DNA of 35,461 nucleotides from Gammaproteobacteria bacterium (GTDB lineage: Bacteria; Pseudomonadota; Gammaproteobacteria; Chromatiales; Chromatiaceae): NCBI GenBank assembly GCA_025458675.1, contig JALORY010000010.1, positions 1 through 35,461 on the forward strand, in the 5' to 3' direction. Below the pieces are notes generated by a model, which saw only the letters and a list, made by a program, of their open reading frames with translations, had not been told where the DNA came from and ran no database searches. Shown here one piece after another: positions 5,479 through 27,856 of this stretch. Position 1 is the stretch's first letter; every line of letters starts with the position of its first letter. A program made the translations under genes and the position numbers.

Positions 5479-5802
5479 ATGGCGATGCGCAAGATTCGTA
5501 AGGGCGACCAGGTGGTCGTCACCACGGGCAAGGACAAGGGCAAGCGCGGCACCGTGCTTCGCATGCTCGGCGACGAGAAGCTGGTCGTCGAGAACGTGAA
5601 CATCGCCAAGAAGCACGTGCGGCCGAACCCGATGCGCGGCGAGCAGGGCGGGATCGTCGATAGGGAGATGCCGTTGCACGTCTCGAACGTGGCCCTTTAC
5701 AACCCGACGACCGGCAAGGCCGACCGTGTGGGATTCAAGACGCTGGACGACGGCCGCAAGGTTCGCGTGTTCAAGTCGAACGGCGAAGTCGTGGACGTCT
5801 GA
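5479..5802 (+). CDS. rplX: 50S ribosomal protein L24
   Basis: The 107-residue product contains the KOW motif in [19 protein letters not shown], then [22 protein letters not shown], as in L24. L24 initiates large-subunit assembly by binding the 5' end of 23S rRNA. It lies between rplN and rplE with spacings of 9 and 15 bases, in the standard spc order. No oddities were seen. Confidence 0.97.
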
Positions 5803-25232: not shown

Positions 25233-26435
25233 TCAGCCGGGACGGCCGTCCACGCGAGGCCGCCAGAGCGGGACGGCGTGCGCCGCGAGAAAGAGCGCGA
25301 ACGCGAGGACCCACAGGCCTGCGGCCGAGTGCACGAGGGTGACGTAGCGCTCCGGCCACAGGGCGGGGGCGACCCCACGCGCGAGCGCCGCGAGGTTGAG
25401 CAGCACGAACGCGATCGTCGCCGCGCGCGGTGCCGTCATCTCGCGCCCCGTGTGGCCGAGCGTGACGCGCGACATCATGCCGAGCGTGAGCACGCCCACG
25501 GCGCCGACGGTGAGTGCGTGCAGCGCGACGTGCGGGCCCACGAGGCCGAACGCAGCGGCCGCGCGCATCGCGAACCCCACGGCGAGCCACAGCACGGCCG
25601 CGTGCAGCACGGCGAGGATCGGTCTGTGCCAGACCTGCGGGTGGTGCCAGCCGGCCTCGCGGGCGACCGTCTGCAGCGCGAGCAGTGCGCACAGCGTGCC
25701 GATCAGCGCCGGCGGAGCGGCCAGCGCGTCGGCGAGCGCGAGGCCGATTGCGGCGGCAAAGCCCGCCTGCTCGAGCCACTCGCGGTTCTTCGGCGTCGCC
25801 CCGGCCACCCCCTTCTCGGTGAAGAAGGCGATCACGCGCCCGGTCACGATCAGGACGAGCAGCAGGACGAGGTCGAGCATTGCGAGGATGCCGCGCGCGG
25901 CGCTGCCCGACGCGAGGCCCAGCGCCTCGGCGTGGACCAGCCCGTTCGCGGCGGCCATCGCCCCGAGCAGCGGCAGGAAGAGCCGGTTCAAGCGGTTCTT
26001 GCCGGCCATCAGCGGGCGGTAGAGGGCGATCGCGACGAGCGGCAGGAAGGCGAGATCGAGCGCGGCGGTGACCGCGCCGGGCACGGGCAGGAAGGGCGAC
26101 GCCCGAGCGGCGATCCACAGCAGCGCCAGGCCTGCCAGCGGTGCGCCGGCGGGCGTGTCGATGCCCGTCCAGTTCCGCACGGCAGTGAGCAGGAACCCGG
26201 CGATCACCGCGCCGGCGTAGCCGAACAGCATCTCGTGGCCGTGCCATCCGACCGTGCCGTAGTACGCGCCGGCGGAAGGCAGGTGCCCCATCCACGCGAG
26301 CATCCACACGCTCACCAGCACGACCGCGCCCAGCCCCGCGAGCAGGAAGAAGGGACGGAAGCCGAACGCGAGGATCGCGGTGCCGGTCGGCGGCGCGCGT
26401 CGCGACGGCGGGGCTTGTATCGGGATGACGGCCAT
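25233..26435 (-). CDS. nnrS: NnrS family membrane protein
   Basis: The 400-residue product is very hydrophobic, with about 12 likely membrane segments. It has the NnrS features GFRPFF at 25-30, GWHGHEMLFGYAGAVIAGFLL around 63-83, and TGRVIAFFTEKG, and histidines that may bind haem or copper. NnrS proteins are linked to nitric oxide metabolism and protection in denitrifiers and others; the biochemical role is not settled. ATG 26435 was chosen over the longer frame to 26510 because AGGTG precedes it and the added residues are basic and not family-like. A perfect FNR/DNR-type palindrome lies 75 bases upstream. Confidence 0.9.
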   Translation of the reverse strand: MAVIPIQAPPSRRAPPTGTAILAFGFRPFFLLAGLGAVVLVSVWMLAWMGHLPSAGAYYGTVGWHGHEMLFGYAGAVIAGFLLTAVRNWTGIDTPAGAPLAGLALLWIAARASPFLPVPGAVTAALDLAFLPLVAIALYRPLMAGKNRLNRLFLPLLGAMAAANGLVHAEALGLASGSAARGILAMLDLVLLLVLIVTGRVIAFFTEKGVAGATPKNREWLEQAGFAAAIGLALADALAAPPALIGTLCALLALQTVAREAGWHHPQVWHRPILAVLHAAVLWLAVGFAMRAAAAFGLVGPHVALHALTVGAVGVLTLGMMSRVTLGHTGREMTAPRAATIAFVLLNLAALARGVAPALWPERYVTLVHSAAGLWVLAFALFLAAHAVPLWRPRVDGRPG

Positions 26436-26509
26436 GCTGCACACCTGTCGGCGGCCGGGCCTGGGCCGACCGGGAGCCGTCTTTCTGCCGGGGCGGGACG
26501 CGCACCGCA

Positions 26510-26523
26510 TTGACTGCGGTCAA
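26510..26523. promoter_or_regulatory. FNR/DNR/NnrR-type operator upstream of nnrS
   Basis: TTGAC-TGCG-GTCAA is a perfect inverted repeat with 4-base spacer, the layout recognised by the CRP/FNR superfamily (FNR, ANR, DNR, NnrR). Its centre is about 81 bases before the nnrS ATG. An activator at -41.5 would place the start near 26475, with CAGAAA (complement of 26482-26487) as a weak -10 and a 40-base leader. No good -35 is needed in that arrangement. It lies about 90 bases upstream of cca on the other strand, where no -10 fits. Confidence 0.7.
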
Positions 26524-26611
26524 CGGGGTGGCGGGCGTGGGGTACCGAAGGGGCCGCGGCAGCGATACCCGCGCGCTTGCCGCCGGCAGGCGCATCGCGC
26601 AGATTGGCGGC

Positions 26612-27856
26612 ATGAAGGCTTACCTGGTCGGCGGCATCGTCCGCGACACCCTGCTCAACCTCGAGCTCGGCCTCGGCGTCGAGTGCAAGGATCGCGACTG
26701 GGTGGTGGTCGGCGCGACGCCGCAGGAGATGCTCGCCGCCGGCTACCGGCAGGTGGGCGCGGACTTCCCGGTCTTCCTGCACCCCGAGACCGGCGAGGAG
26801 CACGCCCTGGCGCGCACCGAGCGGCGGCAGGGACGGGGTCACCGCGGCTTCGTCGTGCACGCGGCCCCCGACGTGACCCTCGAGGCCGACCTCGCGCGCC
26901 GGGACCTCACCATCAACGCGATGGCGTACGACGAGGCCGCCGATCGTCTGATCGACCCTTATGGCGGGCTCGCCGACCTGCGCGGCGGCGTGCTGCGCCA
27001 CGTGAGCCCGGCCTTCGTCGAGGACCCGCTGCGCGTGCTGCGGGTCGCGCGTTTCGCTGCGCGGCTGCCCGAGTTCGCGCTCGCCGACGAGACGCGCGTG
27101 CTGATGGCGGGGATGGCGGCAGGCGGCGACCTCGCGGAGCTCACGCCCGAGCGCGTCTGGAACGAGATCGCGCGGGCACTCGGTGAGCGGCGGCCGCGAC
27201 GCTTCCTCGAGGTGCTGCGCGACGCGGGCGCGCTCGCGGTCGTGCTGCCGGAGGTCGAGCGGCTGTTCGGCGTGCCGCAGCCGGCGATCCACCACCCCGA
27301 GATCGACACGGGGCTGCACACGCTGATGGCGCTCGACGCTGCGTGCGGGCTCTCGCCGGACCCCGCCGTGCGCTTCGCCGCCCTGCTGCACGACGTGGGG
27401 AAGGGCGTGACGCCGACCGGGAAGCTGCCGGCGCACCACGGTCACGACGCCGCGGGCGTGCCACTGGTCGAGACGTTGTGCGAGCGGCTGCGAGTGCCCA
27501 ACCGCTTCCGCGATCTCGCGGTCGACGTGTGCCGCGAGCACGTGCGGGTGCACGATGCCCTCCGCCTGCGGCCTGCGACGGTGCTCGACGTGCTGGAGCG
27601 GACGCGCGCGTTTCGCGACGCGGCGCACTTCGACGCGTTTCTGCTCGCCTGCCAGGCCGACGCGCGCGGCCGGCTCGGTCGCGAGTCCGATCCCTACCCG
27701 CAGGCCGACCTGCTGCGCCGCGCCCGCGAGGCCGCGCTGCCGGTCGCCGGCGCACAGTTCGTCGCGCAGGGCCATGCCGCCGGCCCGCGGATCGGCGAGC
27801 TGGTGCGGCAGGAGCGCGTGCGGCGCATCAGGACGGTGATGGCGCGGGAGGTATAG
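26612..27856 (+). CDS. cca: Multifunctional CCA-adding enzyme with HD domain
   Basis: The 414-residue product matches the class II bacterial tRNA nucleotidyltransferase of gammaproteobacteria. It has LVGGIVRD at 5-12, catalytic carboxylates in KDRDWVVVG (Asp27, Asp29), RRDLTINAMA, EDPLRVLRVARFAAR, and a C-terminal HD phosphohydrolase domain (LLHDVGKG) as in E. coli, where it also has phosphatase and phosphodiesterase activity. It adds or repairs the tRNA 3' CCA end. Compared with E. coli, about 6 extra residues (ELGLGVEC in place of PV) lie just before the catalytic DxD. ATG 26612 gives the family start. Confidence 0.95.
   Translation: MKAYLVGGIVRDTLLNLELGLGVECKDRDWVVVGATPQEMLAAGYRQVGADFPVFLHPETGEEHALARTERRQGRGHRGFVVHAAPDVTLEADLARRDLTINAMAYDEAADRLIDPYGGLADLRGGVLRHVSPAFVEDPLRVLRVARFAARLPEFALADETRVLMAGMAAGGDLAELTPERVWNEIARALGERRPRRFLEVLRDAGALAVVLPEVERLFGVPQPAIHHPEIDTGLHTLMALDAACGLSPDPAVRFAALLHDVGKGVTPTGKLPAHHGHDAAGVPLVETLCERLRVPNRFRDLAVDVCREHVRVHDALRLRPATVLDVLERTRAFRDAAHFDAFLLACQADARGRLGRESDPYPQADLLRRAREAALPVAGAQFVAQGHAAGPRIGELVRQERVRRIRTVMAREV

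Follow-up and report, generated by a model that had tools for sequence, protein, structure and literature searches.

The 35,461-nt stretch of DNA analysed here (hereafter, the window) carries an nnrS gene transcribed divergently from cca, and the gap between the two genes contains a palindrome resembling the boxes of FNR/DNR-type regulators. This raises the questions of whether the palindrome is a control site, which of the two genes it would serve and which regulator would bind it. As argued below, an FNR/DNR-type activator of the CRP family very probably binds the palindrome and thereby switches on nnrS.

The palindrome in the nnrS/cca gap

The features of the locus are as follows:
25233..26435, minus strand: nnrS, encoding a protein of 400 aa (PF05940 NnrS, E=8.8e-103)
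26510..26523, minus strand: FNR/DNR-type box, assigned from its sequence, its genome-wide enrichment and its recurrence 5' of nnrS in relatives
26612..27856, plus strand: cca, encoding a tRNA nucleotidyltransferase with an HD domain (PF01743, PF12627, PF01966)

The gap, which contains the box, spans 176 bp (26436-26611) if the ATG codons at 26435 and 26612 are the starts of nnrS and cca, respectively. The nnrS start was assigned from the open reading frame, its match to Pfam and where the gene begins in relatives; the NnrS protein accordingly begins with MAVIPIQ, and the Cca protein with MKAYLVGG. An alternative nnrS start at ATG 26510, yielding a 425-aa open reading frame, was rejected: the 25 added residues resemble spurious translation of GC-rich DNA, and the box would overlap the start codon.

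Inspection of the sequence bears out the original prediction of an exact palindrome in this gap: positions 26510-26523 read TTGACTGCGGTCAA (TTGAC-TGCG-GTCAA) on the plus strand and TTGACCGCAGTCAA on the nnrS-facing strand. The arms form a perfect inverted repeat, with a 4-bp centre, TGCG, that is not itself palindromic, and the site matches the FNR/DNR core TTGAY-N4-RTCAA with a spacer of exactly 4 bp. From the centre of the box (26516.5), the start of nnrS is 81.5 bp away and that of cca 95.5 bp. Given the base composition of the window (G+C 0.70), only ~6e-5 TTGAY-N4-RTCAA sites would be expected in the 176-bp gap.

Genome-wide distribution of the box and the encoded regulators

A pattern search of the 2.12-Mb assembly, which is 72% complete, yielded 16 TTGAY-N4-RTCAA sites versus ~0.75 expected by base composition and a single site for the reversed-pattern control, so that the box does occur above chance, as anticipated. 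The twelve other spacer lengths between 0 and 12 bp together give just 5 sites in the whole assembly, and the N4 spacing is thus enriched ~38-fold (Poisson P ~3e-20). The exact TTGAC/GTCAA arms occur 5 times with N4 and never with any other spacer from 0 to 12 bp; overall, position 5 of the arms varies between C and T in this genome. By simple open reading frame calling, all 16 sites are located in intergenic or upstream DNA, one of them reaching only into the outermost 5' extension of a radical-SAM open reading frame. Apart from the box in the nnrS/cca gap, the sites are:

L111:3351, upstream of fnr
L111:2472, upstream of the cbb3 oxidase gene ccoN
L108:3962, between norC and a DNR-like gene
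L108:4812, upstream of a cytochrome c/DUF302 gene
L109:4109, upstream of nirS
L106:4142, upstream of nrdD (anaerobic ribonucleotide reductase)
L105:485, upstream of nifJ (pyruvate:ferredoxin oxidoreductase)
L110:3977-3990 (G000:C79:6976-6989), 86.5 bp upstream of rquA
L103:4177, upstream of a Mo-oxidoreductase gene
L114:4202, upstream of a TatD-associated radical SAM gene
L115:4070-4083 (G000:C133:42569-42582), TTGAC-N4-GTCAA upstream of a second DNR-like gene
L104:4209, at a small open reading frame of no known identity, target less clear
L107:4102, target less clear
L112:4374-4387 (G000:C85:17373-17386), perfect TTGAC-N4-GTCAA in the interval separating a hom-like gene from the convergent nadA, no obvious target
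L113:4130, target less clear, as the probable start of proA is some 460 bp off

Judged from sequence, the box-bearing gene set is the one expected of an FNR/DNR regulon. The box upstream of the second DNR-like gene points to a possible regulatory cascade or autoregulation, and the site between the hom-like gene and nadA perhaps serves an unannotated small RNA or gene. The product of rquA is a rhodoquinone biosynthesis methyltransferase (NCBIfam, 307.8 bits, cut-off 175) and a DUF533 gene is divergent from it; the box 5' of rquA suggests low-oxygen control of rhodoquinone synthesis.

The assembly encodes six CRP-family proteins above the Pfam cut-off, and further regulators may be missing given its 72% completeness. 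One is a true FNR (NCBIfam, 289.5 bits versus a cut-off of 228) with the N-terminal cysteine cluster CKNCSLATLC and the recognition helix VETVSR, and another is a CRP/Vfr orthologue (296.5 bits, cut-off 266). A DNR-like protein encoded divergently from norCB, with the helix PETFSR, has DNR itself as its best PDB match (3dkw, 7.4e-42), as does the second DNR-like protein (3dkw, 3.6e-22). Hence, the genome search and the regulator check proposed along with the original prediction both turned out in its favour: the matches include nor, nir and further low-oxygen genes, and FNR and DNR-like genes are both encoded. Control of nnrS by NsrR was considered and set aside as unsupported, no Rrf2/NsrR protein having been found in the 72% complete assembly.

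Architecture of nnrS promoters

FNR/ANR boxes have the sequence TTGATnnnnATCAA, and class II promoters carry them at -41.5. The nnrS upstream regions of other genomes provide a view of whether this arrangement recurs. Within 400 bp upstream of the gene, an exact N4 box is present in 31 of the 109 other nnrS loci (32/110 with the window), whereas across the same 110 regions spacers of 2, 3, 5, 7 and 8 bp give no boxes and a spacer of 6 bp gives one. Within 150 bp, the N4 box is found in 27 of 109 loci (window excluded) and in 15 of the 29 loci from the search of relatives, and spacers of 1-3 and 5-12 bp give none across the 109 loci; matches with a 0-bp spacer in the 150-bp count are not independent sites: they stem from TTGATTGATATCAA, in which TTGATATCAA is included. 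In 21 of 24 distinct proximal nnrS promoters, a TAnnnT -10 element begins 28.5-30.5 bp from the centre of the box, compared to a mean of 1.1 and a maximum of 6 in 2000 shuffles. As read from these sequences, this spacing is the class II FNR-type geometry, with the activator predicted at -41.5, and the conservation 5' of nnrS on which the original prediction depended is found in relatives, at class II spacing.

The bases following the box are also constrained: the second base past it is G in 23 and the third is C in 19 of the 24 nnrS promoters, and the window agrees (TGC). The near-invariance of this G and C is confined to the downstream side (e.g. L028, L121 and L133), and in the window's genome the majority of the other boxes do not share it.

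In the window, this geometry would place the following elements:
26482..26487, minus strand: putative nnrS -10 hexamer CAGAAA, assigned here from its position, which equals that of the conserved -10 in nnrS promoters of relatives
26475, minus strand: predicted nnrS transcription start, positioned by class II geometry with the box centre at -41.5

The first base of CAGAAA is 29.5 bp from the box centre, and a start at 26475 would give a leader of ~40 nt. The stretch from -35 to -30 would then be ATGCGG, in agreement with the expected lack of a good -35 hexamer. The proposed activation from about -41.5 fares less evenly: the box-to-TAnnnT spacing in 21 of 24 promoters of relatives speaks for it, but the -10 of the window is a weak match (3/6) without the T1 and T6 kept in relatives, making the strength of the nnrS promoter in the window uncertain.

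The regulator and the role of cca

We infer from these data that a CRP-family activator dimer would bind the box with its centre at -41.5, substituting for the missing -35 contact, and would recruit sigma-70 RNA polymerase to the -10, which lies about 29 bp further downstream; binding, start site, identity of the regulator and inducing signal (nitric oxide or low oxygen) are all deduced from sequence. The regulator would most likely be the DNR-like protein encoded beside norCB, responding to nitric oxide, although the low-oxygen-responsive FNR of this genome could occupy the same box. Indeed, the box sequence does not separate DNR from FNR.

Comparative analysis of known systems offers some guidance. 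Denitrification genes are controlled by DNR via TTGATnnnnATCAA-like boxes, the DNR regulon consensus in Pseudomonas and beta-proteobacteria being CTTGATnnnnATCAAG, and nnrS is under DNR in P. stutzeri and under NnrR in alpha-proteobacteria (Rodionov et al. 2005, PMC1274295); nnrS is expressed in denitrifying conditions, under DnrD or NnrR (PMC11526790). The regulon described here shares with that of DNR the core and spacing, the sites at nirS, norCB and nnrS, and the DNR-like gene beside norCB, but differs in that its arms end in C (TTGAC) more often than in T, and the response to DNR is a prediction here. Similarly, it resembles FNR/ANR boxes in the core, the N4 spacing, the sites at fnr and ccoN and, in relatives, the -10 about 29 bp downstream, except that both nnrS arms are TTGAC rather than TTGAT. 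With alpha-proteobacterial NnrR (TTGcgnnnncgCAA), the target gene, regulator family and logic are the same, whereas the arms differ (TTGCG versus TTGAC here).

The foremost alternative, plausible yet the less likely one, is that FNR rather than DNR is the main activator, so that oxygen loss alone induces nnrS. A clear FNR gene is encoded, the classic FNR targets fnr itself, ccoN, nrdD and nifJ carry boxes, and one consensus describes FNR and DNR boxes alike (PMC1274295). Nevertheless, dnr directly adjoins nnrS in two relatives, with the box between the genes, either divergently (G014, box at 5523) or on the same strand (G006, box at 575287), and nnrS of P. stutzeri is listed as DNR-regulated (PMC1274295); on these two grounds, DNR is favoured over FNR as the regulator of nnrS. 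Among family genomes, 9 of the 25 with a DNR relative have no exact box at nnrS, and neither of the 2 nnrS-bearing genomes lacking a DNR relative has one, which is consistent with a link to DNR, two genomes being too few to carry weight.

Shared control of both divergent genes, such that cca too responds to nitric oxide or low oxygen, is improbable. The site is symmetric and centred 95.5 bp from the cca start, but none of 29 other cca genes has a box in its upstream region, the nnrS-cca neighbourhood is seen in the window's genome only (no other nnrS locus contains cca), and no hexamer at class II spacing towards cca matches the -10 consensus at more than 2/6 positions. The box thus goes with nnrS, and the effect on cca raised in the original prediction gains no support; cca most likely sits beside nnrS by chance, not as a target, and would be a bystander to activation of nnrS. 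That the box has brought cca, and with it tRNA maturation, under nitric oxide or low-oxygen control in this lineage alone is a slimmer prospect still.

There is very little to recommend a coincidental palindrome whose half-sites, TTGACT and TTGACC, are ordinary sigma-70 -35 hexamers: on either strand TTGAC does agree with the -35 consensus at 5/6 positions, but neither strand has a good -10-like hexamer at 16-18 bp, and the N4 spacing is enriched both genome-wide and at nnrS of relatives. Least likely of all is binding by an HcpR-type regulator, since, despite arms exactly matching the HcpR consensus TTGACnnnnGTCAA of delta-proteobacteria and cyanobacteria (PMC1274295), no hcp gene was found in the 72% complete assembly and the mixture of C and T at arm position 5 is what a single FNR/DNR motif would show in GC-rich DNA; with that consensus already on record, exact TTGAC arms are no novelty either.

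Activation of nnrS by an FNR/DNR-type protein thus being the preferred reading, the site in the window is genuine but unremarkable, one more example of a well-known type of control site, and existing knowledge of nnrS regulation is unchanged by it. What emerges is a coherent account, open to testing, of an FNR/DNR regulon in a denitrifier, in whose family class II FNR/DNR-type boxes 5' of nnrS are common.
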